Virus record (IMG/VR): IMGVR_UViG_3300030380_002011
Span: 1-43,542 of that record
DNA length: 43,542 nucleotides
Strand: one strand, 5' to 3'
Source of the DNA: a virus
The notes below the pieces were generated by a model. The model made no database searches, had not been told where the DNA came from, and saw only the letters and a program-made list of their open reading frames with translations. Position 1 is the stretch's first letter; every line of letters begins with the position of its first letter. Of the stretch, positions 2,951 through 40,382 are shown in pieces. The position numbers and the translations under genes were made by a program.

Positions 2951-3973
2951 ATGCATTCAGTTAGACCAACGACTTTGATCAACCGTATCAAGTCAAACTT
3001 AAAATCAGGACTTAACACAATGGTCTGGGGCGGCCCAGGTATTGGTAAGTCAGAAATTGTGCAACAAGTTGCCGATGAACTCGGTGTATCACTTGTTGAT
3101 TTTCGTGCAAACCTATTCGACCCGGTCGATGTGCGTGGTGTGCCACACATTATGCAAGTCAAAGAAACAGGTAAACGTTACACACGTTGGGCTGTGCCCG
3201 ATGTATTTCCAATCGCTGAACGCGATGGTGAAAACGGTATCATGTTTATTGATGAGCTATCTACTGCACCACCAGCTACACAGAATGCATTCTTACAATT
3301 GTTACTAACCAGACAGGTTGGCGATTACGAACTACCAAACGGTTGGTCAGTTGTCGCTGCTGGTAACAGACTTACAGATGCTGCAGCTGTGTATCAAATG
3401 CCTGCACCTCTTCGTGACAGATTCAGTCATTACGAACTGGATGTCAACTATGAAGACTGGTGTGAGTGGGCAGTATCAAAAAGAGTAGATCCATTGGTTG
3501 TATCGTTTATCAGGTACAGAACCAATCTACTTTACAACTTCAGTGCCGATGAGTATGCATTCCCAACTCCCAGATCTTGGGTGTTTGTACACAAGCTACT
3601 CAGCAAAGAAGCTGAAAATACAGATCAGCAAGAACTTTACTATGGTGTGTCTTCACTTGTTGGTGATGGCCCTGCCGGTGAGTTCATTGCTTTCAAAGAA
3701 GTTGCAGACAAGCTACCAGATGTAGATGAGTTGATCAAAGACCCATCTATATACAAGAAAGATGACAATCCAGCTATTTTGTATGCACTTACAGGCGCTG
3801 TATCCGCTCGTGCAACAGATGACAAAATGGAAAACATCATGAAGCTAAACAAAAAGCTACCTGTTGAGTTCCAGGTCATCCTGGTCAAAGGGTGTTTGTC
3901 AGTTGATAAGCAACTTAAGAGTAATCCAGATGTTAAAAAATGGATTATAGATAACGCTAATGTCGTATTATAA
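2951..3973 (+). CDS. MoxR-type AAA+ ATPase
   Basis: A 340-aa AAA+ protein. Visible motifs are Walker A GGPGIGKS (27-34), Walker B IMFIDE (97-102), sensor 1 AAGNR (136-140) and the arginine-finger region LRDRF (154-158). The order and the short core fit the MoxR/RavA branch, whose members act as ATP-driven chaperones for partner proteins with VWA domains. The partner is present two genes downstream (4643-5752), the classical pairing. Strong AGGAGG ribosome site. Known MoxR systems mature metal enzymes or protein complexes; the archaeal virus ATV also carries a MoxR ATPase that binds a VWA protein. The target here is unknown. Confidence 0.92.
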   Translation: MHSVRPTTLINRIKSNLKSGLNTMVWGGPGIGKSEIVQQVADELGVSLVDFRANLFDPVDVRGVPHIMQVKETGKRYTRWAVPDVFPIAERDGENGIMFIDELSTAPPATQNAFLQLLLTRQVGDYELPNGWSVVAAGNRLTDAAAVYQMPAPLRDRFSHYELDVNYEDWCEWAVSKRVDPLVVSFIRYRTNLLYNFSADEYAFPTPRSWVFVHKLLSKEAENTDQQELYYGVSSLVGDGPAGEFIAFKEVADKLPDVDELIKDPSIYKKDDNPAILYALTGAVSARATDDKMENIMKLNKKLPVEFQVILVKGCLSVDKQLKSNPDVKKWIIDNANVVL

Positions 3974-3984
3974 AGGAGGTTTAT

Positions 3985-4650
3985 ATGGCTACAGTAAGAA
4001 TGGCTGACTATCGCAAACGCGACATAGTCAAAAGAGCTGAAAACAAATGGGATGAAGTAAATCCAAAAAGAGGATATGACCCTTCTGTTGGTGAAGCTTT
4101 ATTTACAGAAAAACTTTCAAAGAATATTGAAAAGTATGAAGCTTTCATGGAAGAAAACTTTCCAGAGCTAGATGTAAAACAATCAGAGATCTCAGAGCTC
4201 AGTATCCGTTTTACCAAAGCTACTGAAGAAGAAGATCAAGAAGATGCTTACGATACTTATCGAGGATCTGTACCTTTGACTACATACAAGAATGTGCCCA
4301 AAGCTTTGACTACTGGGTATGACACTGTAGAGCTGACGCTACCGCCAACTCATGAAGCAGTTATACATTATTTGGATGTTAAGAACTTCAATGAATCTTT
4401 GGATACTAGACAGTATGAATATCGTACAAAGATCAAAGATATGTTGGATAAGTTTCCAACTCTTAACCAAGCATTACGTGCTTTCCCGTCCCTGGAGAAG
4501 CTATGTGATGCAGAAGATGTTCGTAAAGTACATCAAAAGGTAGATCGTACAGCTAGACGTAACGAGCTTCAAGAAATCGCAGAAGAAGAAGGTCAAGAAC
4601 TAAAAGAGATACTTCTTACTTCAAGTCTATTAGGAGATGATGATGAGTAA
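3985..4650 (+). CDS. MATVRM-type protein A, 221 aa
   Basis: Not recognised as a known family, but it appears related to the gene at 6339. Both begin MATVRM and end with a similar acidic tail (LLGDDDE here, LLGEDD there), and both have a helical C-terminal region with a pattern like tLnq-lraf-sLekl and a later KV-R segment. The protein is highly charged and mostly helical, with no cysteines arranged for metal and no membrane segment. It sits between the MoxR ATPase and the VWA metallopeptidase and overlaps the latter by 8 bases, so it is likely part of the same complex, perhaps as adaptor or substrate. Start follows AAAGGAGG. Confidence 0.8.
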   Translation: MATVRMADYRKRDIVKRAENKWDEVNPKRGYDPSVGEALFTEKLSKNIEKYEAFMEENFPELDVKQSEISELSIRFTKATEEEDQEDAYDTYRGSVPLTTYKNVPKALTTGYDTVELTLPPTHEAVIHYLDVKNFNESLDTRQYEYRTKIKDMLDKFPTLNQALRAFPSLEKLCDAEDVRKVHQKVDRTARRNELQEIAEEEGQELKEILLTSSLLGDDDE

Positions 4651-5752
4651 TGACTTATTTGTCAAAGCTAGATCCAAACTTGTTTTGGACAACCCATTCT
4701 TTGGGACCTTGTGCTTACGTTTGACACCAAAAGAAACTGATCAGTTACCTACAGGTGCAACTGACGGGGTGTCATTATTGTACAACCCAAAGTGGTTTGA
4801 AAAACTAAAACCATTGGAACGTGTAGGTTTCCTAGCGCACGAAGTAATGCATGTAGTTTTGATGCATCACATTCGTAGACAAGAACGTCATGCTGAGAAG
4901 TGGAACGTTGCAGCAGATTATGCCATCAATAATCATTTGATTGTTAATGGTTTCATTCTTCCAGAAGGAGGGCTAGTGGATGATCAGTACGCTGACATGT
5001 CTTCTGAGCATATCTACAACTTACTACCTGAGCCTCCTCAGGGTTTTGGTGCGTTGTTAGCTTCAGCAGATTGTGGAGGCGTGCTTGATCATCCCGACTT
5101 ACAAAGTGGCCAGGCTACTGCAGAAAATATCAGTGCTATTGAATCACAGCTTACTGTTGCAATTAACCAAGCAGCAGAAGCTGCAAAAGCACAAGGTAAG
5201 CTACCTGCAGGTCTTGAATCAGTTATTGACGATATCAATACTCCCAAAGTTGATTGGCGAGCAGTACTTGGTAGATTCTTGCGTGCTAATTCAAAATCAG
5301 ATTTCAGTTGGCAAAAGCCAAACAGAAGATTTATTGGTAGTGGTTTGTACTTACCATCTATGTACAACCCAGCATTGGAACAGATTGCAGTTGCAGTAGA
5401 TACTTCAGGTTCAATATCTGATGAAGAACTGCAACAGTTTACATCTGAGACTTCATGTATCTTGCGTGAGCTAAATCCTGAAGTTATACATTTCATACAA
5501 TGTGATGCTGAAGTACATGCATGTGATGAGTACACACGTGAGTCATTGCCACTAAAAGTCAATTACAAAGGCAGAGGCGGAACTGCTTTCGAGCCAGTTA
5601 TTGATTACATAAATGAAAAGTTACCTAACATATCAGCTTTGGTTTATCTAACTGATCTTATGGGTAGCTTTGGTAATGAACCAAGTTACCCGGTTTTGTG
5701 GGTAACAACAGAAGAAGGAGGTGCACCTTATGGTGAAGTCATTCAAATGTAA
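4643..5752 (+). CDS. Zinc metallopeptidase-like / VWA domain protein (DUF2201-type)
   Basis: 369 aa. The N-terminal half carries HEVMH (66-70), continuing into HVVLMHH, a zinc-binding HExxH motif, followed by NVAADYAIN as in the DUF2201 putative metallopeptidase family. The C-terminal half is a VWA-like domain with the metal-ion-dependent adhesion site: DTSGS (253-257), a GRGGTAFEP threonine segment and a later LTDLMG aspartate. All MIDAS elements are present, so it should bind a divalent metal and ligand. Three ATGs in a row (4637, 4640, 4643) follow TAGGAG; 4643 has the best spacing. VWA proteins of this type work with MoxR ATPases, encoded two genes upstream. Confidence 0.9.
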   Translation: MSNDLFVKARSKLVLDNPFFGTLCLRLTPKETDQLPTGATDGVSLLYNPKWFEKLKPLERVGFLAHEVMHVVLMHHIRRQERHAEKWNVAADYAINNHLIVNGFILPEGGLVDDQYADMSSEHIYNLLPEPPQGFGALLASADCGGVLDHPDLQSGQATAENISAIESQLTVAINQAAEAAKAQGKLPAGLESVIDDINTPKVDWRAVLGRFLRANSKSDFSWQKPNRRFIGSGLYLPSMYNPALEQIAVAVDTSGSISDEELQQFTSETSCILRELNPEVIHFIQCDAEVHACDEYTRESLPLKVNYKGRGGTAFEPVIDYINEKLPNISALVYLTDLMGSFGNEPSYPVLWVTTEEGGAPYGEVIQM

Positions 5753-5909
5753 AGAAACCGTAAAAGATTACGGTGTATCTATACTTGTGGGTACTGCTGT
5801 GTTGCTAGTTATGCTTGGCGTAGCTACTTCAGTACATCACATACTTATGATGCTGGGCATTGCAGCTTTGCTCGGTATAACAATTTATTCATTATGGAGG
5901 ATATTATGA
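5730..5909 (+). CDS. Small membrane protein, two predicted helices, 59 aa
   Basis: MVKSFKCKETVKDYG is followed by two hydrophobic segments (about residues 17-36 and 39-57) separated by a short SVHH turn, so both ends are probably on the same side of the membrane. ATG 5730 is preferred because GGAGG lies 8 bases upstream, inside the end of the VWA gene; the two genes overlap by 23 bases and should be translationally coupled. It is the first of three membrane proteins tied to the MoxR/VWA unit. Not recognised. Confidence 0.7.
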   Translation: MVKSFKCKETVKDYGVSILVGTAVLLVMLGVATSVHHILMMLGIAALLGITIYSLWRIL

Positions 5910-6058
5910 CAAGTGTTGTCTCGACAGTTACAACTGTCTTATGGATCTTAATCGAAGCCATTCAGTTTGCTTACATGGCTTATCTTATGTGGAGGAGTAG
6001 AAACAATGTATCTAATCGGCATCTTCAGCGCGCTAGGTCTGCTTTTGCTTGCGCTTAA
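5906..6058 (+). CDS. Small single-span membrane protein, 50 aa
   Basis: MTSVVSTVTTVLWILIEAIQ... has one hydrophobic helix (about residues 4-28) followed by a basic tail (WRSRNN...HLQRARS), which predicts the C-terminus in the cytoplasm. The ATG overlaps the previous stop (ATGA), and GGAGG lies upstream. The 3' end overlaps the next gene by 53 bases in another frame. No family recognised; holin-like in size, but the true holin is elsewhere. Confidence 0.6.
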   Translation: MTSVVSTVTTVLWILIEAIQFAYMAYLMWRSRNNVSNRHLQRARSAFACA

Positions 6059-6329
6059 AATTGGTGGTCGTAAGACTATTGGTTCAGACATCTTCGTCGA
6101 CGTGCTCATCACGTTGACACTTATGGTTGCCTTTTACGGCACCTTCAGCGGCATGGCAGCAGCTATGCTCGGTGGCCTTTGTGCATCTGTGGTTTTGTTT
6201 CTTCTCAAACGAACCATGTATCACGAAACATTGACAGTCAAACCTGTCGACAAAAAAGTATTTAACAAAACGGTAAGTATTCCTTTCCCTACATGGGAAG
6301 GACAAAAACCAAAGTGGCGTAAACTATAG
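6006..6329 (+). CDS. Membrane protein, 107 aa
   Basis: ATG 6006 follows GGAGGAG and is preferred over an earlier in-frame TTG-type extension. Hydrophobic helices are at about residues 1-18, 29-47 and 49-67, then a soluble basic tail ending FPTWEGQKPKWRKL. A GRKTIGSDIFVD segment links the first two helices. It is the third membrane gene in succession after the MoxR/VWA pair, followed 9 bases later by the MATVRM-type protein B. Similar hypothetical membrane proteins appear in marine phages, without known function. Confidence 0.75.
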   Translation: MYLIGIFSALGLLLLALKIGGRKTIGSDIFVDVLITLTLMVAFYGTFSGMAAAMLGGLCASVVLFLLKRTMYHETLTVKPVDKKVFNKTVSIPFPTWEGQKPKWRKL

Positions 6330-6338
6330 GAGGTTATT

Positions 6339-7223
6339 ATGGCTACAGTAAGGATGTCAAAGACATTAATAGATCAGATTCTTAACAACTTTAAGAATCA
6401 GTGTGCAACAGCATACGCAAACAACAGTGGAGTTGGAGACTTTGTACAAGAAGTTAACAGGTCACTTCATTCACCAGATTTCTATGCTCTTATTGATAAA
6501 CATCAAGAGTATCAAGAAATGGTTGAAGCATTTAGAACAAAAAATAATGAACAAAATGCTCATTATTATGAGAGAAATACAGAACAATCTAGATTTCCAT
6601 TTACTTTATGTAAATCAGTTTTCTTTGTTGTAAATGCAAACAGGCCTGATATGGAAAATAGGACTCAACTAGATACTTGGTCTATGGAAACATATGATAC
6701 AGGTTCTTTAGAAGAAAGAACTACTAATAAAGCAGAGAACTTTGTTCAAGGTGATCGATTGATTGAGTTAGAAGTAACTAATCCTATGGAAGCTTTAGAT
6801 GAATATGATACCTCTGTAAAAGGTATGCCTTTTTATAAAGCACCAAGAGATGATCGTCCTTGGAATTTGCATGATGACTTTAGACATCAAACAGTACAAG
6901 CAAAAAATCCAATAGTTATCTCAGAAACTTCAGATATACAACGACTAGAAACTGTAGCGGGTGGTACATTCAAAATAAAACAAGCAGTAGAAGATATGGA
7001 AAACTACTTGAACCAATTGACTACTTTAAAACAGTTTGTTGATAATTGGTCAGGTGGTTCAGAACTTGTTCCAGATGAATATCTGCAAAGACTCAACAAA
7101 AAAGTTGTAAGAAACAAAGCAACGCTTGATGTCCCTACTCTAGCTGATGACTTAAAAGCAGATATTAATACTGCAATTTTTGAAAACAAACTTCTAGGTG
7201 AAGATGACAAATCAACAGCGTAA
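6339..7223 (+). CDS. MATVRM-type protein B, 294 aa
   Basis: Starts MATVRMSKTLIDQIL and ends KLLGEDDKSTA, resembling the gene at 3985 at both ends. The middle is longer and carries its own sequence (aromatic and acidic, with FRHQTVQAKNPIVISETSD). No enzyme motif, cysteine cluster or membrane helix is visible. A strong AGGAGG site precedes ATG. The relationship suggests duplication and divergence of a component that works with the MoxR/VWA pair. The 3' end overlaps the next small gene by 20 bases. Confidence 0.8.
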   Translation: MATVRMSKTLIDQILNNFKNQCATAYANNSGVGDFVQEVNRSLHSPDFYALIDKHQEYQEMVEAFRTKNNEQNAHYYERNTEQSRFPFTLCKSVFFVVNANRPDMENRTQLDTWSMETYDTGSLEERTTNKAENFVQGDRLIELEVTNPMEALDEYDTSVKGMPFYKAPRDDRPWNLHDDFRHQTVQAKNPIVISETSDIQRLETVAGGTFKIKQAVEDMENYLNQLTTLKQFVDNWSGGSELVPDEYLQRLNKKVVRNKATLDVPTLADDLKADINTAIFENKLLGEDDKSTA

Positions 7224-7377
7224 GTTAATATTTCATCTTCTAGTAGAGAATAGACTTATGTTAGAAGGGTTTGCAGAAAGAGCTGGAGACCCTTCTTTAA
7301 CCGCAAAATATTTAGAGGAAATAAAGTTAAACCAAGAAGCAACTTTATCTTTTTCAAAGTTATTAAGAGATTCTTAA
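7204..7377 (+). CDS. Small helical hypothetical protein, 57 aa
   Basis: MTNQQRKLIFHLLVENRLML... to SKLLRDS, almost entirely helical and charged. It starts within the end of the MATVRM-type B gene, with no strong ribosome site of its own other than AGGTGAAG upstream (7196-7203), suggesting translational coupling. Its stop codon (7375-7377) falls inside the 5' arm of the predicted RNA stem at 7371, so translation could affect folding of that element. Confidence 0.6.
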   Translation: MTNQQRKLIFHLLVENRLMLEGFAERAGDPSLTAKYLEEIKLNQEATLSFSKLLRDS

Positions 7378-8461: not shown

Positions 8462-8869
8462 TTAAGATACGTATACCCAAAGTTCGATGGTACCTGTACC
8501 ACCACCAGCTGGACCGGCTTGTACTGTGATGTCAATTGTGTCATCAGATGAGTACTCGTATGGTGCAAAAGCTGCGTCTGTTTTGTCTACGCCACCAGCT
8601 TGTCCACTTGTAGAACCATCAATGATTCTGTCAGTGTCGCCGCCGTCGCCAACATCAAGGACTAGCGTTGTACCTGTGTCTAAGTCATCCACTTTAAGAA
8701 CAACATCATGCACAGTTTCACCTGCAAATACGTCAACCATTTTTATTACATCACTTGTTGCAACAGCAGTAGTAGCTTCAAACTTTGAATACCTAACACC
8801 TAGTTGCCCAGATGGAAAAGGTTTAAAAGATTGATTACCACTTACCACGTCTGAAGTATAAGTCGCCAT
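8462..8869 (-). CDS. Probable structural (head decoration-like) protein, 135 aa
   Basis: MATYTSDVVSGNQSFKPFPSGQLGV... is a beta-rich, Gly/Asp/Thr-rich, lysine-poor protein with repeated strand patterns (VHDVVLKVDDLDTG, LVLDVGDGGDTDRI, TGTIELWVYVS). It resembles small virion surface or decoration-type proteins seen in marine phages; the family name is not certain. It is the only minus-strand gene in the plus-strand early region, far from the other virion genes, with its own consensus-like promoter (8919-8946), a dyad at the start site and a shared terminator. It therefore behaves as an independent transcription unit like a moron. Confidence 0.75.
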   Translation of the reverse strand: MATYTSDVVSGNQSFKPFPSGQLGVRYSKFEATTAVATSDVIKMVDVFAGETVHDVVLKVDDLDTGTTLVLDVGDGGDTDRIIDGSTSGQAGGVDKTDAAFAPYEYSSDDTIDITVQAGPAGGGTGTIELWVYVS

Positions 8870-9197: not shown

Positions 9198-10997
9198 ATG
9201 CAAAAATTATATCTAGATTTCGAAACTTATTATGATGTTCATTTTAGTCTTACAAAGATGACCACAGCCCAGTATGTAAATGATGAACAATTTTCTGTAT
9301 GGGGCGTGGGTATCAAAGTAGAAGATGAACCAACACAATGGATCCCAGGTGATGAATGTTTTGATGTATTACACTCTATTGACTGGGACAATACCGCTGT
9401 AATTTGTCACAACACTTTGTTTGATGCATACATTCTTACGCAGCACTATGGAGTTACACCAAAGTACTATTACGATACTGCAGCAATGAGCCGAGGTATT
9501 TATCCAAATGAAAGTGCAAGTTTGAAAGCTGTGGCCAAACGTGTGTTTCCAAACGATGAATCAATGCGTAAAGGTGAAGAACTAGTTACTGCAAAAGGTA
9601 TAAAAGATCTCCCACCAGATGTCGAAGAAAGTATTGCAGGATATTGTATACAAGACGTAGATCTGACTTATGCAATCTTCAATCAGTTTATTGCTGGTTA
9701 CCCACAACAAGAACTAGATCTCATAGATCTTACTTGTAGGATGTTTGTAGAACCAAAGATTATATTAGATAAACAAATGCTTAGAGACCACCGAGATAAT
9801 GTAATCGAAACTACTAAGAACCTAATAGAAGAAAGTGGACTTACAAGAGAGGTCCTGGCTTCCCAGGTTAAGTTTACACAACACTTGACCGAAGAGCTAG
9901 GACTTGTAATACCTAAAAAGAAAAGCCCACGCACAGGAGAAATGATTCCAGCACTTGGTAAATCTGATTCAGGTTACATACAAATGTGTAACGCCCACCC
10001 AGAATACAAACACATCTGGGATGCCAGGGAGGCTGTAAAGTCACGTATTGAAGAGACAAGAGCAAATAGATTTCTTGATTCAGTAAATCCTGATGGCACT
10101 TTCTCTATACCGTTACGTTACTATGCTGCGCATACAGGACGCTTTGGCGGTGCAGAAAAACTTAATCTACAGAACCTACCCAGAGGATCTAAGTTACGTA
10201 CTGCATTACAGTCCCCAGCAGGTCAACTAATGTATATCGCTGATTTATCTAATATTGAAGCACGGATGCTCGCTTGGTTAGCTAAAGAACAAGACCTAGT
10301 TGATGCTTTTGCAACAGGTAGAGATGTCTATTGTGAGTTTGCTAGTCAAATATATGGTAGAGAAATTACAAAAGCTGACAAGCTAGAACGTTATGTAGGC
10401 AAGACTGCAATACTAGGACTTGGCTATGGTATGGGAGCTCCGAAGTTTAAGATGACTTTGAAGTCAGGTTCACCCTCTGTAGAAGTTACAGACTCTACAG
10501 CGCTAGCTATTGTAAGCCAGTATCGAGCTATGTACCCAAACATTCCGATGTTATGGAATGGTTGTAAGAACTTACTTTATGCAATGATGAACCGTAGTTC
10601 GTTGGGCATGAGTTATGGACCGTTGACCGTAGATACAAATGCCATCCGGTTGCCTAATGACATGCATCTTAAATACCCACAACTAACCTATCAAAGCGGT
10701 CAGTTTGTTTACTTCTCAGGTAAAAGTGTTATACGTACGCATGGCCCTAGGATGACAGAAAACATTGTTCAAGCTCTAGCAAGAATAGTTATTACCGAAC
10801 AAATGCTCGAAATACAAAACTTACCAGAAGTATCAGTTGTATTACAGATACACGATGAAGTAGTGGCAATTGGTTCTGATGGAGAAGCCGACAAGACATT
10901 AGAAAAAATTCTAGCTATAATGAAAACACCTCTATCTTGGTGTCAAGATCTACCGTTAGATGCAGAGGGAAACTACAGCACAAGTTATGACAAATGA
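9198..10997 (+). CDS. polA: DNA polymerase I (family A) with 3'-5' exonuclease, Leu at the 762-equivalent position
   Basis: 599 aa. The N-terminal DEDD exonuclease is intact, with LDFET (D7, E9), a CHNTLFDAY segment and a YCIQDVDLT segment. The polymerase part shows motif A ADLSNIEARMLAWL, motif B RYVGKTAILGLGYG (R398, K402, L406) and motif C QIHDEVV. By alignment with E. coli Pol I R754/K758/F762, position 762 is leucine. In marine phages this residue correlates with replication style: Phe/Tyr in fast lytic phages, Leu in temperate or slower ones. No 5' nuclease domain. It overlaps the CsrA-like gene by 4 bases (ATGA). Confidence 0.96.
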   Translation: MQKLYLDFETYYDVHFSLTKMTTAQYVNDEQFSVWGVGIKVEDEPTQWIPGDECFDVLHSIDWDNTAVICHNTLFDAYILTQHYGVTPKYYYDTAAMSRGIYPNESASLKAVAKRVFPNDESMRKGEELVTAKGIKDLPPDVEESIAGYCIQDVDLTYAIFNQFIAGYPQQELDLIDLTCRMFVEPKIILDKQMLRDHRDNVIETTKNLIEESGLTREVLASQVKFTQHLTEELGLVIPKKKSPRTGEMIPALGKSDSGYIQMCNAHPEYKHIWDAREAVKSRIEETRANRFLDSVNPDGTFSIPLRYYAAHTGRFGGAEKLNLQNLPRGSKLRTALQSPAGQLMYIADLSNIEARMLAWLAKEQDLVDAFATGRDVYCEFASQIYGREITKADKLERYVGKTAILGLGYGMGAPKFKMTLKSGSPSVEVTDSTALAIVSQYRAMYPNIPMLWNGCKNLLYAMMNRSSLGMSYGPLTVDTNAIRLPNDMHLKYPQLTYQSGQFVYFSGKSVIRTHGPRMTENIVQALARIVITEQMLEIQNLPEVSVVLQIHDEVVAIGSDGEADKTLEKILAIMKTPLSWCQDLPLDAEGNYSTSYDK

Positions 10998-11167
10998 GCA
11001 ATCTTATACTTACAAGAAGAAAGAAAGAAGGAGTCATTATCTACAAAGATGATGAAGTCATCGCTGAAGTTGTTGTAACTAGCCTTGGCCCTAAACAATG
11101 TAAGCTCGGTTTTGTAGCTAAAGAAAATGTTAAAATAGATAGAAAAGAAATATACAAAAAGAAATAG
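10994..11167 (+). CDS. csrA: CsrA-like carbon storage regulator
   Basis: 57 aa. MSNLILTRRKKEGVIIY aligns with the CsrA N-terminus (LILTRR-GE), VVVTSLGPKQCKLGFVA with the central strands (VTVLGVKGNQVRIGI-A), and VKIDRKEIY (46-54) with V-VHREEIY. The RNA-contact arginine of CsrA (R44 in E. coli) corresponds to R50. CsrA dimers bind GGA-containing hairpins over ribosome sites and repress or stabilise mRNAs. The gene overlaps polA by 4 bases and ends 9 bases before the primase-helicase, so it is made with the replisome. It could retune host metabolism or the phage's own GGAGG-led messages. The typical long C-terminal tail is absent. Confidence 0.88.
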   Translation: MSNLILTRRKKEGVIIYKDDEVIAEVVVTSLGPKQCKLGFVAKENVKIDRKEIYKKK

Positions 11168-11176
11168 GAGGTTTGT

Positions 11177-13621
11177 ATGGAAATAGTTTTTCTACAAGCA
11201 AAGAAAAAACTAATAAAAGAAATATCAAAGGACGCAACTACACCCTACCCCCTTGTTAAAAAGTTTACTTCTCATCATTTCAATGTAAAGAAAACACAAA
11301 AAGGAATTGAAGATTTCTACGCACACTTACAAACCGCAGCAGCTGCAGGTATGTGTTTACACAAAGGCCTATTGTTACGTAACTTACAAGATGAGCCCAG
11401 GGCTTTAGTAGCTGACAGAAACGCCCCAACTGAATTATTAGTTATTGATATAGATGGCTTACAAATGCCAGCTCAGGATCTAACTGATGTACAAACACTA
11501 GCAGAGAAGATTGTTGTACATCTTCCAGAAGAGTTTCAGAATGTGTCTTACATTGCTCAAGCTAGCGCATCATTAGGTTTAAAACAAGATAAAGTCTCAC
11601 TTCATTTATTCTTTTTCTTAAAACATGCAGTACATCCAAAGACCCTGAAGGAGTGGTTGAAGATGTTAAATTATGAAACCGATATACTAGCTAAACACTT
11701 AAAGCTATCTGCTAATGGTCAAAGTTTAAGTTACACCTTAGACCCTTCAGTTGCAGACAACAGTAAATTAATTTATTTATCTGCACCAAAGTTTGTTGAC
11801 ATACAAGACCCGATAGCTGGAGACAGGTTTGTACACATCAAACGTGGTTCGCCAACCTTAGATCTTAATGTAAGTAACATAAACCCAGAAAGAGTTCATA
11901 ACTTAGGAATACAAATAAAAGATAATCTCCGTAAAAAACTAAACTTACCTAAGAAATCTGAAAAGATTAGATCAATTACAATTGCAGGAGAGTCTCAAGA
12001 AGTCTTACAAAACCCAGATAAAATGACTATAGATATAGTCCGTGTAAATGAACCTTACGTAAACTGTAATGTAAATGGAGGCGACAGTAATGGATATTAC
12101 TTCTTACTTAGCAACCCACATTATATGTACAACTTCAAAGGAGAACCTGTTTGGGAAATACAAAAAGCAGATCCAGAGTTTTATAAAAGTATATTTGAAA
12201 CTTTCGCTGATAAAATAGATGGTGATCAAAAACTAAAACCAATAGTTCTTAGAGATTTCTACACTGATACTTATTTCAATGGTATTTATGATGAAAACAA
12301 AGAACAGTTTACAGACGATTATCCACTCACTCCTACGCAGAAATCTTCTTTAAACGACTTTATGCGTACACATAATCGTACGCTGCCTGACTATGTACCA
12401 GATGCACAAGTTGTATTTGATCCAGCATCTGATAAAGGCATACAACTAGAACAACCTCCATATCACGTTAATTTATATAGAAAAACTTCTTACATGCTAC
12501 AAGCAAAAGAAACGGTCGAACTTGAATATGGGACTGCAAAAAAACTACAAGAACGTATACCTAACATATACAAATTAATACATCACATATTAGGCGGAGG
12601 CGATACTGAGTTTGAACATTTCATAAATTGGTTAGCTTATATTTACCAAAATAAACAAAAAACTATGACCGCATGGATATTTACAGGTGTACCAGGTACC
12701 GGTAAAGGTTTGTTTGTACATAAAATATTAAAACCTTTATTCGGTGAACAACAAGTCCCAATGCGTTCATTAGAAAATATAGAAGAACAATTTAATTTAT
12801 ACATGCGCACAGCGCTCTTCTTAGTTGTAGATGAATTTCGTATGAGTGACTCTGGCAACACCAATCGTATGGCTGATAAATTAAAACATCAGGTTACTGA
12901 ACCTACATTAACTATCCGTGCTATGCGTACAAACCAAGTCGAGCTGCCAAGTTTTTGTAACTTTATCTTTCTTACAAACAGAGGAGATGCTGTAAAGATT
13001 GAAGATGGAGATAGACGTTACAACGTAGGCCCCAGGCAAGAAAGTAAGTTACAGCACTCAATACCTGAGTTATTAGATAACTTAGACCAATTGTCATCTG
13101 AGTTATATTACTTCGCCGGTGTCTTACAAGCTTTCCAGGTAGATAATCGTATGGCACATACAGCGTTAGAAAATGATGCTAAACAACAAATGAAGCAAGT
13201 ATCTATGTCTGTACTAGAAGAATTTGCACATGCAATAAAAGAAAAGAACTTAGAATACTTTATAGAAATATTAGATATAGAAATTACAAACACATTTGAT
13301 GCAGGTGGCATTGCATCAGCGCAACGTTATGTAAAAGATTGGATTTCAAAAGTTGGTGTAGAAACTGTTATACCAATGCAGCATTTCAAAGTTGTATATG
13401 ATGTACTTACAGATAGCCGTAACAAGCTGTCTCAAAGAGACTTTTCAAAAGCAATGTCTAGGTTAAATGTTGTTACTAGAAGAAAAAGAGTATCGTCTGA
13501 CAAACACGCTAGCATTCCTCGCGGGGTTGTAATAACTTGGAAACTCGAAGATAATGTTAAAGATACTTTAATAAAAGATCATTTCGACGAAAAAGATTTA
13601 AAACTTTTAGCAACAAAATAA
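11177..13621 (+). CDS. Primase-helicase (AEP-type primase plus SF3-like helicase)
   Basis: 814 aa. N-terminal archaeo-eukaryotic primase-like motifs are LLVIDIDG (D91, D93), SLHLFF (S141, H143) and a third acidic site near LDPSV (D189). The C-terminal helicase has Walker A GVPGTGKG (504-511), Walker B LFLVVDEF (about 538-545) and a sensor-like block PSFCNFIFLTNRGDAVKIEDGDRRY, as in phage/plasmid DUF5906-type helicases. One protein would thus prime and unwind at the fork with the PolA encoded just upstream. Strong AGGAGG site overlaps the end of csrA. Confidence 0.88.
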   Translation: MEIVFLQAKKKLIKEISKDATTPYPLVKKFTSHHFNVKKTQKGIEDFYAHLQTAAAAGMCLHKGLLLRNLQDEPRALVADRNAPTELLVIDIDGLQMPAQDLTDVQTLAEKIVVHLPEEFQNVSYIAQASASLGLKQDKVSLHLFFFLKHAVHPKTLKEWLKMLNYETDILAKHLKLSANGQSLSYTLDPSVADNSKLIYLSAPKFVDIQDPIAGDRFVHIKRGSPTLDLNVSNINPERVHNLGIQIKDNLRKKLNLPKKSEKIRSITIAGESQEVLQNPDKMTIDIVRVNEPYVNCNVNGGDSNGYYFLLSNPHYMYNFKGEPVWEIQKADPEFYKSIFETFADKIDGDQKLKPIVLRDFYTDTYFNGIYDENKEQFTDDYPLTPTQKSSLNDFMRTHNRTLPDYVPDAQVVFDPASDKGIQLEQPPYHVNLYRKTSYMLQAKETVELEYGTAKKLQERIPNIYKLIHHILGGGDTEFEHFINWLAYIYQNKQKTMTAWIFTGVPGTGKGLFVHKILKPLFGEQQVPMRSLENIEEQFNLYMRTALFLVVDEFRMSDSGNTNRMADKLKHQVTEPTLTIRAMRTNQVELPSFCNFIFLTNRGDAVKIEDGDRRYNVGPRQESKLQHSIPELLDNLDQLSSELYYFAGVLQAFQVDNRMAHTALENDAKQQMKQVSMSVLEEFAHAIKEKNLEYFIEILDIEITNTFDAGGIASAQRYVKDWISKVGVETVIPMQHFKVVYDVLTDSRNKLSQRDFSKAMSRLNVVTRRKRVSSDKHASIPRGVVITWKLEDNVKDTLIKDHFDEKDLKLLATK

Positions 13622-26665: not shown

Positions 26666-27064
26666 TTAATTGCCTTTTGTTACTTTTTCTTTTTTCTCGT
26701 ATGTCCTAAGACCGGCCATTCCGAGCATAGCCATAAGTATAGTTGATAATTGACTGAAATCAAACTCTGGTAATTGCACTTGTATACCAATAATATTAAG
26801 AAAAAACTGCATCATAGGCGCAATAATAAAGTGATATAACATAGCCAAACTACAGACCCAGCCAACACTCGGCCTCCAGCCTGCAACAAACCAACTTGTA
26901 CTTGCAGCTTCAATTTTGTTTACTTCTATCTGTGCAAGATTAGCAGTTTGTAGTTGTGTCTTGAGCTCATGCTCAAGTTGCATTTTAAGGTTCTTATCTG
27001 CAACGAACTTGTTAAGTACGCTACCTGCTATGCCTACTACTGATTTTGTTATTGGATCACTCAT
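26666..27064 (-). CDS. Holin, 3TM GTA-type
   Basis: 132 aa. An amphipathic N-terminal coiled coil (KNLKMQLEHELKTQLQTANLAQIEVNKIEAAS) precedes SWFVAGWRPSVGWVCSLAMLYHFIIAPMMQFFL, matching the 3TM holin family first defined from gene-transfer-agent release. A third hydrophobic stretch is STILMAMLGMAGL. It would permeabilise the inner membrane at the end of infection. AGAGG precedes the ATG. Its place beside the M15 peptidase makes the lysis role secure. Confidence 0.93.
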   Translation of the reverse strand: MSDPITKSVVGIAGSVLNKFVADKNLKMQLEHELKTQLQTANLAQIEVNKIEAASTSWFVAGWRPSVGWVCSLAMLYHFIIAPMMQFFLNIIGIQVQLPEFDFSQLSTILMAMLGMAGLRTYEKKEKVTKGN

Positions 27065-31303: not shown

Positions 31304-33370
31304 CTATGAATCCAATCCTGTAACGCCTATCGGTACAGCAGTTGCATGACAAGTAATGCTGCCACCTGTACTTTTTATTTGCAGATTTCCACCACTTGCA
31401 TTAGCCACAAGACTGTTTGATGAAATTGTGTCATAAATAATTACAGCAGAGCCTGTTGATAAACCAACAAGCAATACAATAGAAGTCCCCACACTAGCAC
31501 CCTCTCTTACAACTGTTACCAAATAAAATCCTCTACCTGCATTAGTTGCTCCTGCTGTTGAAAAATCTAAAACATTTGAATAGCTAGATGTAATACTATT
31601 ATTTACACTTCTAAGCGTATCTGTATGCAGTCCAACACCATTTCCTAGAACTGCATGTCCATGATCTTGATCTAAATGTAAAACAACCTGACCTGCACCA
31701 TACGCATAAAAATTAAGGTCTTCAGTAGTAGCTTCATTATTTATCTGCCATTTATTTGTGTTTTCTCTTTGGAATACCATTCCACCATCGTTACCTGAAC
31801 CACTATTAACAATAAAATATTTATTACCTGTATTACCTGTTCCATAGTTAAAACTAAAATTTCCACCAGAGGTAATTCTTGCTCGTTCTGAATTGTTAGT
31901 TACAAAAGCTAAATCTTCATTAGCAACTGAACCAAATATTGTATGTCCGCTTGTGTTCCATCGCCACTCAGACTTAGGTGTTCCTGATACAGAGTTTTGA
32001 AACACACCACCCCATGTGTCGTCAAGTTCTAGAGATACTCTATTAGTTTCATTGTTTGCTGATGCAGTTCCGATTCCAACATTGCCTGCAAAATAATTAC
32101 TACCTCCACTTATATGTGCTATTTCTACAGGAGAAGAATAATCTGACCAAGGTGTTACATTCTGCTCTCTTCCGTATCTAAAAAATCTAAATTTAGTGCC
32201 GCCCTGACTTCTTCCTGCTAAGAAATTTATATTGTAGTCTCCGCTTGTATCGTCAGTAATTTTTAAACCAGAATAACCATTATTAGGATTATCAAAAATA
32301 ACTCCGTTACCTCCCATGGCGTGCAGCTGTGTAACAGGAGAACCGCCCATTCCAACTCTATTATTACTAGAGTCAACTACTAAGGTATTTGTATCAACTG
32401 TTAAATTAGCAGACATCTTCACATCCCCAACAATATCTACGGGGACAGAAGGAGAAGCAGTACCTAGCCCAACTCTTGAGTTAGCGTGATCTACAACAAA
32501 AGTAGGCGAATCAAAAGCAACATCATTAGATCCTACTATTAAATTACCTGGCATAGTAATGTTGCCAGACAACTTAGCACTAGTAACTGTGCTGTCGCTT
32601 GGTGTTCCAATATTAACTGGATTGATTACATAAACTGTTACGCCTCTACCAGCTATAACTCCTGTGGTTATCGTCAGAGTATTGGATGAGATTGTGTAAG
32701 CATCTTGATCTTGAAAAACACCATCTACAAAAACTATTAAATTAGTTTCGGCAGCTGGAGTATCAGATAAAACAAAATCTGTTTGTGGGCTACCGCTTGC
32801 ATCTGCTGCGGTAAAAGTATCAACTGTAAGATTAGAACTTTGTAAGTTAATTAGGTTATCAATAATAACCTCAAGAGCCATTCCATTGGGTGGGGCAGCA
32901 TCGAAGGTCAAATTTGTACCTGAAAAAGATAGAGTGTCGTGGTGCTGTAAAACACCATTTAAGAACACCATAGCGTTGGCTTCAACGCCTGGATTGGTTC
33001 CTATGTTATATGTTGTCGCTCCACCAGCTGTAGTTGCATTGAATACAGTCTGGTTTGCAGATTTAGCTGCAATGTTTTCTTGAATTGTTTCGAGAACTCC
33101 AGCAGTAACCCTACCTTCAGCAGAATCTCCAGACGAGAACGCTCTTGCCGTAGTGCTCTCTTGAGCACGGACAATAGTTAGAGTATTGCCAGACCTAGCA
33201 GTACACTTACATATTTCGTTGTTTGTTCCATCATCAAAAGTAACTAGGAAAAATTCACCAGCGTTTAAGCTAGGGAATACGCTACCATCAGTAACAGTAG
33301 CACTTGTAGCTGAGTTACTAAGGCTTGATGCAAGTGTCGTCTTGGCATTGTTCTTAAAAACAATTCCCAC
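31304..33370 (-). CDS. Tail fibre protein, 688 aa, GTG start
   Basis: N-terminus MGIVFKNNAKTTLASSLSNSATSATVTDGSVFP...GEFFLVTFDD...LTIVRAQESTTARAFSSGD is the head-proximal domain seen in many marine phage fibres. Two related beta modules follow (VFNATTAGGATTYNIG / FLNGVLQ and TAADASGSPQTDFVL / VFVDGVFQDQDAY), then DHANSRVGLGTASPSVPVDIVG and repeated VGIGT phrases, and a C-terminal beta domain. GTG start has GGAGG 8 bases upstream. Confidence 0.87.
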   Translation of the reverse strand: MGIVFKNNAKTTLASSLSNSATSATVTDGSVFPSLNAGEFFLVTFDDGTNNEICKCTARSGNTLTIVRAQESTTARAFSSGDSAEGRVTAGVLETIQENIAAKSANQTVFNATTAGGATTYNIGTNPGVEANAMVFLNGVLQHHDTLSFSGTNLTFDAAPPNGMALEVIIDNLINLQSSNLTVDTFTAADASGSPQTDFVLSDTPAAETNLIVFVDGVFQDQDAYTISSNTLTITTGVIAGRGVTVYVINPVNIGTPSDSTVTSAKLSGNITMPGNLIVGSNDVAFDSPTFVVDHANSRVGLGTASPSVPVDIVGDVKMSANLTVDTNTLVVDSSNNRVGMGGSPVTQLHAMGGNGVIFDNPNNGYSGLKITDDTSGDYNINFLAGRSQGGTKFRFFRYGREQNVTPWSDYSSPVEIAHISGGSNYFAGNVGIGTASANNETNRVSLELDDTWGGVFQNSVSGTPKSEWRWNTSGHTIFGSVANEDLAFVTNNSERARITSGGNFSFNYGTGNTGNKYFIVNSGSGNDGGMVFQRENTNKWQINNEATTEDLNFYAYGAGQVVLHLDQDHGHAVLGNGVGLHTDTLRSVNNSITSSYSNVLDFSTAGATNAGRGFYLVTVVREGASVGTSIVLLVGLSTGSAVIIYDTISSNSLVANASGGNLQIKSTGGSITCHATAVPIGVTGLDS

Positions 33371-33390
33371 AGTAAAAGCCTCCTATTATA

Positions 33391-33816
33391 TTAGCTGACT
33401 GTTACTGTCCAGGTAATTGTCATAGAGTCTGCTGATCCTTTGTTTACAACTGAAAAAACAGTTCTACACAACATAGTACCACCAGAAGAGGCATTAAATA
33501 AGCCAGCTTCTGTAACAGCACCCGTTCCTGTACCCGCTCCAAAAGTTGCAACATAAGTTACAACGGCACTAGAAACGTTTGTGCTTGTTAGAGATACTCT
33601 ACCAAGGGCCGATCCTAATGCGGTGTCTGAAGCAGCTGCAGCTGTAGAACCACTACCAATCTCCATATGAGACATAGCAGTTGCTGAAGCATCTTTAATA
33701 CGAGAAGCAACATAGCCCTTACCTGCGGTAACAACTAGGTTATCTACTTCTTGTACGACCTCACCATTGATTGCAATGGCAAGTTTACCTTTTAGTTTTA
33801 AATCATCATTTATCAT
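33391..33816 (-). CDS. Tail structural protein, 141 aa
   Basis: MINDDLKLKGKLAIAINGEVVQEVDNLVVTAGKGYVASRIKDAS... is a beta-rich protein with MEIGSGSTAAAASDTALGSALGRVSL and a TEAGLFNASSGG-MLCRTVF pattern, common to small phage tail or fibre-base proteins. It lies directly after the cupredoxin-repeat protein. Exact role unproven. Confidence 0.75.
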   Translation of the reverse strand: MINDDLKLKGKLAIAINGEVVQEVDNLVVTAGKGYVASRIKDASATAMSHMEIGSGSTAAAASDTALGSALGRVSLTSTNVSSAVVTYVATFGAGTGTGAVTEAGLFNASSGGTMLCRTVFSVVNKGSADSMTITWTVTVS

Positions 33817-33826
33817 TTATGAGCTC

Positions 33827-36229
33827 CTAATTTAATACAAATGTATTTAAAACAGCAGTATTCAAAATAGATCCCCCACCGGGAATAAATAGAATACTAA
33901 CTGACTCCGATATTGTAGCACTATCTGAAACAGATTTGCTAAAACTATGCGCCAAACTTTCTGCAATACTTGCAGCGTCTGTAGGGTTCATACCAAAACT
34001 GTGGGCTAAAGTCTCTACAATTGAGGTTGTATCTTGTTGTCCTTCTGCAGAGTTTAAGTTAGTTATTTCAGTAATGCTTACTACATCTGCAAATACATCA
34101 GCAGCTGCTAAACTTAGTCCTTCTGAAATAGATACAGTATCACTAAGAGCTTGTCCAATATTAAATACAGGTGTGCCATCTGTAGTTGAAACAGTATCAG
34201 AAGGACTTAAATTAGCTAAATAACTAAGATCTTCACTAATACTTGGGGCATCTGTTATACCAGGCTTACTAAAAGCTTTTGCTTCAGAGTCACTAAATCC
34301 AATAACATTGTTTTTTACTAAGTCTGATTGAGTGGCTAAGTCATCTGAAGCACTTGCAGTATCATCTAAAGCTGCTGCATCAGTAAAAGTTCTAATGAAA
34401 CTTACTACTCTAGCTAATGATTCTGACATTGTAAGGTCACCAACAGTAGATATTGAAGAATTTACCTCTCCTCCCATACCACTATGGTTTGTACAATAAT
34501 AGAAAAGGGTTGTAGCTGTGCTATTTGTTACTTGTATTCTGGTGAAAGCACCGCTTGAACCTGGAGTTCCATTCGTTGTAACTCCTGTTGTGTATTCTGT
34601 TCCACTTGCATGACTTCCATTTGAGGTTTCACTAAATCTAAATGGATGATTTGAATTAGATGAGTCCGATTGATTAAATGTGTAGGTATTACCAGCAACT
34701 AAATGCACTATGGGTGTTATTACGCCATCAATATAATATTTATTTCCAGATCCATGATTATTGACACCAGTTGCTACTGTTACATCAAAAGTAGTATCCC
34801 CATCATCTTGAACAGATGTTTCAGCTCCCATTCCACTATGATTGCTACAGTAGTAATGTAAATCAGGAGTTGATGATGTAACTTCTATCCTTGTGTAAGC
34901 TCCGCTAGATCCTGGGGTTCCGTTGGTTGTTATGTTTGTTGTGTATTCAGTTCCTGAATTATGTGTTCCATTTCCAGTAATTGAAAACCTTAAAGGGTGA
35001 TTAGAATTACTTGAGTCTGATTGATCAAATGTATAAGTAAATCCTTCATTTAAAATTAAACCTGGGCTTGGAAGACCATCTATGTAGAATTTATTTCCAG
35101 ATCCATAAACATTTGTTCCAGTAGCAACAGTTACCTCATAAGTCTTGGTTGTTGGTATGCCTGCCGTTGTAATGTTCGCTTGACCTCCCATTGCAGAGTG
35201 GTTAGTGCAATAGTAATAAAGAGTGCTTGGGGTTGAGTTTGTAACAGTAATTCTTGTATATGCACCAGAAGAACCAGGTGTTCCATTAATAGAAACATCT
35301 GTTGTATACGCTACTCCGCCTGCGTGAGTTCCATTTGATGTTGTTGAAAACCTTAACGGATGACCAGAATTGCTTGAATCAGATTGATCTAATGTATATG
35401 TAAATCCAACCTTTAAAGAAAGCGTATCTTGCTGAACTCCATCTATAACATATTTGTTTCCGTTGCCCGTGCTTACTACTGTAACTGCAAATGTTTGATT
35501 CTCTCCAGCTCCCTCTTCAACATTCTTTCCAAATAACTTTGTATCAGTTTCTGCAACTTGAAGTGTATCTGAGTTGGCTTTTCCAGTTTCTAGTGTGGGT
35601 GAGTCAGAAAATGATAGGCTATCAGCTTTGACAAGTTCAACCTCTACTTCTATTGGATCAGAAAATGATACTGTGTCAGTTTTTCCAATACCAACATTTC
35701 TTATTGCTTGTTCTGTAACAGATGTTGTATCTGCCTGGGCACTACTAAATAGCTTCGCAAGTTCTTCAGTTACAGTAGAAGAATCAGACTTGCCTATAGA
35801 AGTATCTTTAGATGCAATAGCTTCAGCCATTGAAGTGGCATCTGCTAGAGATCTATTGAATTGAACAACTTTAGTAAGTTGCTCAGTTATTGTTGGTGTA
35901 TCTGACTTGCCTAAATTAAATATCTTAGTTGGATCTTGATCTCCAACAGATGTGATATCTGATTTTCCTAAACCAACATTCCTTACATCTGTATCTGTAA
36001 ATGAAATAGTCTCCGCATTAGGCGAACCAAGCGAAGCCATAAAGTAAAGGTTTTTAGTGTCTGAGTCTAAAGTAAGAACAGTATTCAGATTAACAAAATC
36101 TAAACCTGTTTTAAGATTTACAAATTCTAGAAGTGTGGTTGCATCAGATGATGCTTGTAGGGATGCAAACTCCTGCTTGGTTATCTGGATATTGAGAGCA
36201 GAAAATTCTACCTTTAATCTGATAGCCAT
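33827..36229 (-). CDS. Large tail protein with three cupredoxin-like repeats, 800 aa
   Basis: Residues 1-240 and 600-790 consist of short degenerate repeats around S-D-T/S-x-S-x-T-E (for example KSDTPTITEQL, SDTVSISEGL), probably a fibrous shaft. Between them lie three tandem domains of 118-120 aa, each with a TYTFDQSDSSNS-HPLRFS block and a YYC-x2-H-x2-M block. His290/Cys341/His344/Met347, His411/Cys461/His464/Met467 and His528/Cys579/His582/Met585 match the type 1 copper ligand order, with the C-x2-H-x2-M spacing of amicyanin. The protein may bind copper or only keep the fold. It lies between a BppU-like protein and a fibre gene. Confidence 0.85.
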   Translation of the reverse strand: MAIRLKVEFSALNIQITKQEFASLQASSDATTLLEFVNLKTGLDFVNLNTVLTLDSDTKNLYFMASLGSPNAETISFTDTDVRNVGLGKSDITSVGDQDPTKIFNLGKSDTPTITEQLTKVVQFNRSLADATSMAEAIASKDTSIGKSDSSTVTEELAKLFSSAQADTTSVTEQAIRNVGIGKTDTVSFSDPIEVEVELVKADSLSFSDSPTLETGKANSDTLQVAETDTKLFGKNVEEGAGENQTFAVTVVSTGNGNKYVIDGVQQDTLSLKVGFTYTLDQSDSSNSGHPLRFSTTSNGTHAGGVAYTTDVSINGTPGSSGAYTRITVTNSTPSTLYYYCTNHSAMGGQANITTAGIPTTKTYEVTVATGTNVYGSGNKFYIDGLPSPGLILNEGFTYTFDQSDSSNSNHPLRFSITGNGTHNSGTEYTTNITTNGTPGSSGAYTRIEVTSSTPDLHYYCSNHSGMGAETSVQDDGDTTFDVTVATGVNNHGSGNKYYIDGVITPIVHLVAGNTYTFNQSDSSNSNHPFRFSETSNGSHASGTEYTTGVTTNGTPGSSGAFTRIQVTNSTATTLFYYCTNHSGMGGEVNSSISTVGDLTMSESLARVVSFIRTFTDAAALDDTASASDDLATQSDLVKNNVIGFSDSEAKAFSKPGITDAPSISEDLSYLANLSPSDTVSTTDGTPVFNIGQALSDTVSISEGLSLAAADVFADVVSITEITNLNSAEGQQDTTSIVETLAHSFGMNPTDAASIAESLAHSFSKSVSDSATISESVSILFIPGGGSILNTAVLNTFVLN
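34457..35491 (-). repeat. Three tandem cupredoxin-like domain repeats within the 800-aa gene
   Basis: Coding units of about 354-360 bp. The encoded Cys residues are at 341, 461 and 579, giving periods of 120 and 118 residues. Each unit has the same invariant stretches (DQSDSSNS, TNGTPGSSGA or INGTPGSSGA, and C-x2-H-x2-M). The high similarity suggests recent duplication or recombination. Confidence 0.85.
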
Positions 36230-36603
36230 TAGTCAAAATCATCTCTCACGCTAAGTTTTATTAAATCATTGACAGTTTGAATGTTGCCGTCTGATTTCGT
36301 GAACTCAACCTCCGCTTCATAAACTCCAGCATCTGGAAATGTGTCTGATGGAAAAAGCATTGCTACTTTTCCTCCTGAAGCATCTGTGATTGATGCTGTT
36401 ATTGTTTTAAGTATTGTTGTTTCGCCAATTTCCCTGACTCTTACTCTGACTGTTCCTCCAGTTATATTAATTGGAGCAAAAGTGTCTTGATCTTCAGGAT
36501 CTAAAGTTTGACCGCTTGCAGCTGTATTACTATCTTTAAGAGTAATAGTAAGCTCTGGCAGCGTATCGCCTTTTACTAATTTAATTGTTTCCGAATATGC
36601 CAC
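36229..36603 (-). CDS. BppU-like N-terminal domain protein, 124 aa
   Basis: MAYSETIKLVKGDTLPELTITLKDSNTAASGQ... then GGTVRVRVREIGETTILKTI...MLFPSDTFPDAGVYEAEVEFTKSDGNIQTV. The beta-sandwich pattern KGDT-P-L-ITL-D and AG-YEAEVE resembles the BppU N-terminal domain of baseplate upper proteins. GTG start overlaps the adaptor's stop (TAGTG) with GGAG upstream. It probably links fibres to the tail. Confidence 0.75.
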   Translation of the reverse strand: MAYSETIKLVKGDTLPELTITLKDSNTAASGQTLDPEDQDTFAPINITGGTVRVRVREIGETTILKTITASITDASGGKVAMLFPSDTFPDAGVYEAEVEFTKSDGNIQTVNDLIKLSVRDDFD

Positions 36604-37283
36604 TATACAAACTCCTGGTATTTAACTGTCAGAGGAGCTCCTACATTGCCGTATTTAGCTTTTCTGACTGCTTGTGCCTCTCCCTTATCATACAGTCTTT
36701 TATTGAGATCTGCTGCCTGTATATCAGTCCAGGGGCTATCTTTCATCATCTGTAGTCTATACAGAGCACCATGTACTATGGTCTCCATATACTCATTAGC
36801 TATTATAGATGGTATTGTGGTAGCCGTCTGCTTAGGTTTGAGAGAATATAAAACATAGAGTTTTTCATTAACAGTTGGTGTAGGTGCAAACAAAATTGTT
36901 TCCTGGTCCTTTTGAGTGTAATACTTAACAGCACCTTTCCCATAAACATCAAATATAGATACACCACCTATCTGTGCTTTTGGTTCTATCTTGGTGTATT
37001 TCTTTTGAGATATCTGAGTGCCAGTTGATTCTGAAAACTCTTTGTAAATATCAATAATGTGATTTAACTCAGTACCAACAGGTATATCGAGATCTGAAGA
37101 GCTATACTCATTGAGATTTTTAACAACCTGTAAGAGGGTAAGATCTTGTAAATATATGTCTGTATTAACACAAAAATCTATAAGTGTATTTCTTAACTCC
37201 TCAATAGCCAAAAACGAAGGACAGCTTGGAGCTTCTCTTCTTACTTTTGGTACTAATGTTTCTATTTTCTTTGATACTGCCAT
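36603..37283 (-). CDS. Head-tail adaptor-like protein, 226 aa
   Basis: MAVSKKIETLVPKVRREAPSCPSFLAIEELRNTLIDFCVNTDIYLQDL... has the helical N-terminus (PSC----I-EALR-A---FC---) of podovirus adaptor proteins and a C-terminal EYMETIVHGALYRLQMMKDSPWTD helix pair. It follows the first connector gene by 6 bases. Such proteins form the ring between portal and tail. Confidence 0.8.
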   Translation of the reverse strand: MAVSKKIETLVPKVRREAPSCPSFLAIEELRNTLIDFCVNTDIYLQDLTLLQVVKNLNEYSSSDLDIPVGTELNHIIDIYKEFSESTGTQISQKKYTKIEPKAQIGGVSIFDVYGKGAVKYYTQKDQETILFAPTPTVNEKLYVLYSLKPKQTATTIPSIIANEYMETIVHGALYRLQMMKDSPWTDIQAADLNKRLYDKGEAQAVRKAKYGNVGAPLTVKYQEFV

Positions 37284-37289
37284 TATTCA

Positions 37290-37952: not shown

Positions 37953-37956
37953 ATCA

Positions 37957-38244
37957 TTACAGACCTAACTGTTCTTTTTCTTCTTTGGAGAGAGCTCTTT
38001 CATCATAAATGAATGTCCAGTGTTCTTCTCTATGTATAGGATTCCAAGGCACAACTTTGCCGTATTCCCCTCTTGATGCAATAGGATTTCCCTTGCCAGA
38101 ACTTTTTTTCTTGGGCTTGGATTCTTTTGCATTATTCTTCTCTAATGTTTCAAGCTTGTCTTCAAGATCAGTAAGCTTCTCTTTAGGATCTAACTTAACA
38201 TTAAATTTATCTTTTGCGGTTTTTAAAATTTCGTCTTTTTTCAT
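37957..38244 (-). CDS. Small coiled-coil virion-region protein, 95 aa
   Basis: MKKDEILKTAKDKFNVKLDPKEKLTDLEDKLETLEKN forms a coiled coil, then a Lys/Ser linker (KPKKKSSGKG) and a conserved-looking VPWNPIHREEHWTFIYDE tail. It overlaps the upstream basic gene as ATGA. Proteins of this pattern follow the coat gene in other marine phages; the role could be head completion. Confidence 0.75.
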   Translation of the reverse strand: MKKDEILKTAKDKFNVKLDPKEKLTDLEDKLETLEKNNAKESKPKKKSSGKGNPIASRGEYGKVVPWNPIHREEHWTFIYDERALSKEEKEQLGL

Positions 38245-38438: not shown

Positions 38439-38440
38439 TT

Positions 38441-38467
38441 GAAAAAGATGGGGAGCCGAAGCTCCCC
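38441..38467 (-). terminator. Intrinsic terminator/attenuator after the major coat gene
   Basis: On the minus strand GGGGAGC pairs with GCTCCCC (38467-38461 with 38456-38450) around a TTCG tetraloop, followed by ATCTTTTT. It is the only strong hairpin in the structural block and would lower transcription of connectors and tail genes relative to the coat protein. Confidence 0.88.
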
Positions 38468-38477
38468 AAATTTATGA

Positions 38478-39341: not shown

Positions 39342-39384
39342 TATTTTACTCCTTAATTAAAAGTTTAAACAAATAGCAAAATTC

Positions 39385-40350: not shown

Positions 40351-40382
40351 TTTTTCGGTCCTCTTTGGGGGTGTCGATAAAA

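Follow-up and report, generated by a model that had tools for sequence, protein, structure and literature searches.

In N4-like phages (Schitoviridae), gp24 and gp25, a MoxR-type AAA+ ATPase and a partner with a VWA domain, are core genes of unknown function (PMC4193335, PMC7650795), and group 2.2 jumbo phages encode a MoxR protein together with a vWA protein bearing an N-terminal metallopeptidase, for which a role in virion assembly has been proposed (PMC7824862). In Escherichia coli, the MoxR ATPase RavA and its VWA partner ViaA are lipid-binding proteins located at the inner membrane (PMC9489729), and bacterial ternary systems that combine MoxR and vWA with a third conserved component, at times with a peptidase fused to the vWA protein, are predicted conflict systems (PMC7159879). 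Here we analyse a single viral contig of 43,542 bases (IMG/VR record IMGVR_UViG_3300030380_002011; hereafter the window), in which such a pair lies within a unit of seven overlapping plus-strand genes (2951-7223), all present and all intact, together with two Nmad5-like proteins (MAT1 and MAT2) and three small membrane proteins (TM1, TM2 and TM3). We tentatively favour, at somewhat under an even chance, the view that this unit is an early-expressed machine for protein remodelling, built on a pair of the N4 gp24/gp25 type and served by a third component of its own.

The core of the unit is already known from other phages, as homology identifies it with the N4 gp24/gp25 pair. The MoxR protein (2951-3973, 340 residues) matches Pfam AAA_3/AAA_5 above cut-offs and PHROG 1297 at E=3e-93, and its partner (4643-5752, 369 residues), which joins a zincin-like HExxH domain to a VWA domain with a metal ion-dependent adhesion site (MIDAS), matches DUF2201_N "putative metallopeptidase" (PF13203, E=1e-54), the VWA-like DUF2201 (PF09967, E=9e-29) and PHROG 1314 (E=1e-104). 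In an alignment that takes in N4-like and jumbo phages, G32, K33, D101, E102, N139, R157 and R208 of the ATPase are kept in at least 97% of the sequences, preserving Walker A and B, the sensor residue N139 (sensor 1) and the arginine finger, with R157 and R208 invariant across the phages; the same holds in the VWA protein for H68, E69 and H72 of HExxH, for H77 and for the MIDAS residues D255, S257, S259, T316 and D340. Counted from the ATG at 4643 the latter numbers are two lower and correspond to H66, E67 and D253 of an earlier note on this DNA, which had called both an intact ATPase with D101/E102 and a complete MIDAS fused to HExxH, and was right in each case. The invariance of the ATP-hydrolysis, zincin and MIDAS residues in such distant phages is consistent with a working machine.

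By tblastn the VWA partner occurs in at least 684 phage records, chiefly of N4-like phages but also of jumbo phages and vequintaviruses; none reaches 60% identity, and the nearest stands at about 38%. Phages LUZ7 and G7C are annotated with genes like N4 gp24 and gp25. As in several N4-like phages, the MoxR and VWA genes lie on one strand, one gene apart, and like N4 gp24/gp25 the pair of PHROG 1297 and 1314 families sits in the arm of replication genes. Searches of PDB sequences returned no relatives for the MoxR protein at E<=0.1 or for the VWA protein at E<=1, RavA included; this sets the pair apart from RavA-ViaA, as do the zincin domain fused to VWA here and the attached MAT and TM genes. 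PHROG 1314 and many phage records label the zincin-VWA protein "HNH endonuclease", a label we reject: no HNH domain was found in it, and PF13203 and PF09967 match instead. True HNH homing endonucleases adjoin the zincin-VWA gene in some N4-like phages, a possible origin of the mislabel.

It is the gene between the pair that distinguishes this locus. Where N4-like phages have no gene in this position, or one for an HNH homing endonuclease, or else a small gene of no relation, the gene here encodes MAT1 (3985-4650, 221 residues), whose paralogue MAT2 (6339-7223, 294 residues) lies at the other end of the unit; neither MAT2 nor the membrane trio is found in those phages, and no MAT or TM genes are reported for the group 2.2 jumbo phages. 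The two MAT products had been described as related helical proteins, under the name MATVRM. Their kinship stands, as separately built alignments match each other at 99.3% probability and E=2e-20 (hhalign); the purely helical character does not, both being predicted alpha/beta proteins, and they are no orphans, having relatives in the Nmad5 family (PF18757, phrog_1965), which includes YuA gp15 and nmad5 of Dhillonvirus. The PF18757 profile is matched by 24 of 39 MAT1 orthologues (best 8e-8) and 11 of 27 MAT2 members, and phrog_1965 by 25 and 10, respectively, while window MAT1 on its own scores 19.4 bits, below the 27-bit Pfam cut-off. The predicted MAT1 model (predicted local distance difference test, pLDDT, 81) matches Nmad5 proteins in the BFVD viral structure library, with Foldseek E values to phage proteins of 3e-6 to 6e-4 and modest template modelling scores (TM-scores) of 0.39-0.53; two of its top ten matches are named nucleotide modification associated, and the MAT2 model matches the fold more weakly. 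Eleven Nmad5-type proteins of other phages have in common an N-terminal motif and a C-terminal TTxxxLxxWPExxxLxP segment, which MAT1 and MAT2 share in the form TTLxQxLxAWPxxxxLVP. Profile and predicted fold thus place both in the Nmad5 family, from which they are strongly diverged and within which duplication and locking to MoxR/VWA are seen only in this lineage. No significant relatives of known structure were found for either by sequence or fold. Among bacterial genomes MAT1 has a single match, encoded on a 60.8-kb contig (PBPT01000002.1) of a Candidatus Neomarinimicrobiota metagenome-assembled genome; this is probably a phage contig binned with a bacterial genome, and a weak clue to the host.

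IMG/VR searches with VWA, MAT1, MAT2 and TM3 gave 92 contig clusters, 75 of which have both MoxR and VWA; the searches use peptide patterns of the queries and hence mostly reach this lineage. Of these 75 independent contigs, 74 have MAT1 placed between the two genes, the exception being a distant form at 36% identity (L074). TM3 adjoins the unit in 68 (51 downstream, 17 upstream), and MAT2 is present in 41, including 39 of the 64 contigs that have the full region. As loci found through VWA could bias the linkage, each query was also counted alone: MAT1 retrieved 67 new loci, with VWA in 64 and MoxR in 64 and the shortfalls at contig ends; TM3 found VWA in 41 of 42 new loci; and among contigs retrieved by the polymerase, all 17 with at least 6 kb upstream of it carry the VWA gene. 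The membrane and MAT genes are therefore conserved with the MoxR/VWA pair in related phages, as the earlier note had supposed in treating them as one unit. In some lineages an extra gene of 124-263 residues, without a Pfam match, lies between MAT1 and VWA (L022, 9339-9989; L055, 8993-9784; L050, 9627-10001).

Such constancy could also belong to a bundle of unrelated early genes whose order is kept by common descent and shared transcription, with any joint machine limited to MoxR and VWA. The operon is compact, the order of the flanking genes g892 and g1888 and of the polymerase is conserved too, and MAT2 comes and goes, having changed at least four times on a tree of MoxR plus VWA. On the same tree, however, the TM trio has changed place at least three times, moving from one side of MoxR-MAT1-VWA to the other, where the upstream form abuts or overlaps MoxR, and whenever it is near it abuts the set; MAT1 moreover stays between the pair despite insertions of other genes there. 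We accordingly hold the bundle to be rather improbable: because the trio relocated and still abuts the unit, the linkage appears to exceed passive co-inheritance, short of proof of interaction. Rates of change differ sharply within the unit. In genome pairs with VWA at 60-70% identity, median identities are 66% for MoxR, TM3 and the polymerase alike, 31% for MAT1 and 28% for MAT2. Within a unit that otherwise changes slowly the MAT proteins thus change fast, a pattern that would suit a component conferring specificity but equally one under weak constraint. The lineage-specific combination of the pair with MAT1/MAT2 and the TM trio is new, and no phage system of exactly this composition was found in the literature searched, as the earlier note had also stated; its core pair, by contrast, is familiar from N4 and from jumbo phages.

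The phage relatives of the window also bear on the leading alternative, that MoxR/VWA is a chaperone-peptidase that folds or processes structural proteins of the virion. This has been proposed for the jumbo-phage pair with Acidianus two-tailed virus (ATV), where such a role was shown for the tail, as precedent (PMC7824862), and the N4-like phage RPP1 encodes virion proteins near its gp24/gp25 homologues (PMC4193335). At the right end of the window, however, most head genes share 73-94% identity with two phages (G002, G005) in which the early arm finds almost no match, and the early arm matches, mostly at 50-78%, two cassette phages (G016, G020) that have neither its capsid nor its portal. The VWA gene is missing from ten same-head phages (portal 77-89%, capsid 79-92% identical), with nine cassette phages as positive controls in the same run, and portal and capsid show the reverse pattern, present in same-head phages and not in cassette phages; likewise, neither MAT1 nor the polymerase had a match in twelve same-head records, in two runs without a positive control. 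The same-head phages also encode a homologous internal virion protein (42-46%) and one homologous tail protein (79-94%). Homologous heads, along with homologous internal virion and tail proteins, are thus made by phages that have no cassette. The distribution of the cassette follows the early/replication arm, and it is separable from the head genes, in contrast to what is proposed for the jumbo phages: it lies beside polymerase and primase, on the strand opposite to the late genes. It is important to note that independent contigs tile the window at 247-28,880 and 32,346-40,995, with none spanning 28.9-32.3 kb, where the assembly may be chimeric; such a chimera would leave untouched what the tail and internal virion proteins indicate. 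Because same-head phages lack the cassette and because it neighbours polymerase and primase, we favour an early, probably membrane-associated remodelling role over virion assembly, which we regard as unlikely though still the main rival.

In the arrangement we propose, the MoxR ring would provide ATP-driven force, and the zincin-VWA protein would bind it through the VWA/MIDAS domain and hold or cut the substrate. MAT1, translated from between the two, would set the machine's target as an adaptor or client specific to this lineage, and MAT2 would be an optional second one; by analogy with systems of MoxR, vWA and a third component (PMC7159879), MAT1 may take the place of that component. The machine would be active as the phage takes over and replicates, and its target would be a host-side complex or an early complex of the phage rather than the head. 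TM1-TM3 may bring it to the inner membrane, or mark its target there, an address suggested by analogy with RavA-ViaA. As the earlier note had it, the three membrane genes are consecutive. TM1 (5730-5909, 59 residues, two predicted helices) overlaps the 3' end of the VWA gene and has homologues in 63 loci; TM2 (5906-6058, 50 residues, one predicted helix) has a basic C-terminus and a conserved core W-I-L-I-E-x-I-Q-F-x-Y-M-A-Y; and TM3 (6006-6329, 107 residues, three predicted helices), in out-of-frame overlap with TM2, gives weak matches to PHROGs 37899 and 19152, both of unknown function. We considered the trio as a lysis cassette and rejected this: a holin of the three-helix, gene transfer agent type is encoded elsewhere, at 26666-27064, and TM1-TM3 belong to the early arm.

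The apposition of three small membrane proteins and an ATPase machine had led the earlier note to an envelope-directed machine, perhaps for superinfection exclusion, defence or host metabolic control, whose target may be a membrane or host metal enzyme. A remodelling machine near the membrane remains reasonable, and bacterial MoxR-vWA ternary systems are predicted to act in conflict; nothing points specifically to exclusion or defence, however, nor does anything implicate a metal enzyme of the host. Against the PADLOC models the MoxR protein had no more than marginal, partial matches (E 6e-4 or worse) and the other proteins none; no VMAP, iSTAND, FtsH or beta-propeller component was recognised in the unit by Pfam, where the bpMoxR model reaches 23.4 against a cut-off of 27; and the cassette is a core feature of the lineage rather than being patchily distributed. 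The third component here is Nmad5-like and the system phage-encoded, both unlike the bacterial ternary systems. We consider a role in exclusion or defence very improbable.

The Nmad5 kinship raises another alternative, in which MAT1 and MAT2 contribute to modifying or replicating DNA, with MoxR/VWA as the loader or activator of such an enzyme. Nmad5 genes adjoin those for thymidylate synthase or dUMP-hydroxymethylase in YuA, Pollock and SP-076, N4-like gp24/gp25 lie among deaminase, thymidylate synthase, helicase and polymerase genes, and in the window polymerase and primase follow the unit. Against this, the window proteins that were scanned include no recognisable enzyme of base modification, and the nucleotide-modification role of Nmad5 is itself a prediction; in Dhillonvirus, a point mutation in nmad5 allows escape from Tmn immunity, whereas its deletion did not abolish sensitivity to Tmn (PMC11846954). 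An accessory role in nucleotide or DNA metabolism thus seems improbable to us. A bolder variant of our own proposal, a phage system for regulated proteolysis or remodelling in which the MoxR-driven zincin-VWA protein processes or exchanges its fast-evolving Nmad5-type partners at the inner membrane, we would call a long shot.

Several observations weigh against a dedicated MAT1-MoxR/VWA machine. A compact phage operon neighbourhood can be inherited without functional linkage, and the fast evolution of MAT1 may equally reflect weak constraint. At E<=5, no MAT1-like gene was found near the MoxR/VWA genes of N4-like, Thermus, cyanophage or jumbo phages, and the N4-like phages Pollock and D283b encode an Nmad5 protein kilobases away from their pair, so the two can exist separately. 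The conserved LLGDD C-terminus of the MAT proteins is a weakened candidate for a tag docking them to MoxR/VWA: in many loci, including window MAT1 and most MAT2 genes, its coding sequence runs into the next gene's ribosome-binding site and start, and Nmad5 proteins of phages without the pair have a related C-terminal LNxMIGLP motif.

The layout of the unit suggests a single transcript with coupled translation, owing to Shine-Dalgarno-like sequences and gene overlaps. AGGAGG precedes the MoxR gene; the VWA gene could start at ATGs 4637, 4640 or 4643, of which 4643 has the best spacing from an AGGAG at 4632; TM1, TM2 and TM3 each follow a Shine-Dalgarno-like sequence and overlap the next gene, with an ATGA overlap at the TM1/TM2 junction. 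Promoter-like sites are no more numerous than expected by chance. The earlier note had carried the unit on to 7377, but the 59-residue open reading frame at 7198-7377, for which only the two nearest contigs yielded a relative, falls outside the conserved unit.

More broadly, the early/replication arm occupies about 0.3-18 kb on the plus strand and the late arm about 21-43.5 kb on the minus strand. The contig is probably incomplete, as its terminase frame runs off the right end and the contigs of relatives extend to 56-63 kb; no direct DNA relatives were found among sequenced phages. The late arm (20000-43542) is a mosaic, its tail genes alternating in affinity between cassette and same-head phages and its head block wholly of the same-head type. 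Between DNA polymerase and primase lies a CsrA-type translational regulator (10994-11167; PF02599, E=4.6e-11, above cut-off), conserved across the lineage. A lone minus-strand gene for 135 residues (8462-8869), without a Pfam match, interrupts the plus-strand early arm and in most relatives stands just before the polymerase; it is 93% identical to its G016 counterpart, against about 70% for neighbouring genes. The 814-residue primase (11177-13621) has matches of about 30% to Pseudomonas phages KPP25 and phiR18 and to Aeromonas phages, unlike the head genes, which is another sign of mixed ancestry.

The carriers of the cassette are uncultured marine viruses that infect bacteria and form a widespread group, in which the separation of cassette from head genes speaks against extending the virion-assembly proposal to all MoxR/VWA pairs of phages. 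For pairs of the gp24/gp25 type, core genes of a large phage family, this lineage narrows the hypotheses, and the locking of the pair to MAT1, together with the mobile membrane trio and the replication arm, defines a small set of proteins to co-purify. The Nmad5 family, recently tied to escape from Tmn immunity, gains a possible functional context other than base modification; should MAT proteins be processed or exchanged by the machine, Nmad5 proteins in general would serve remodelling machines as clients or adaptors and would not be enzymes of nucleotide modification.

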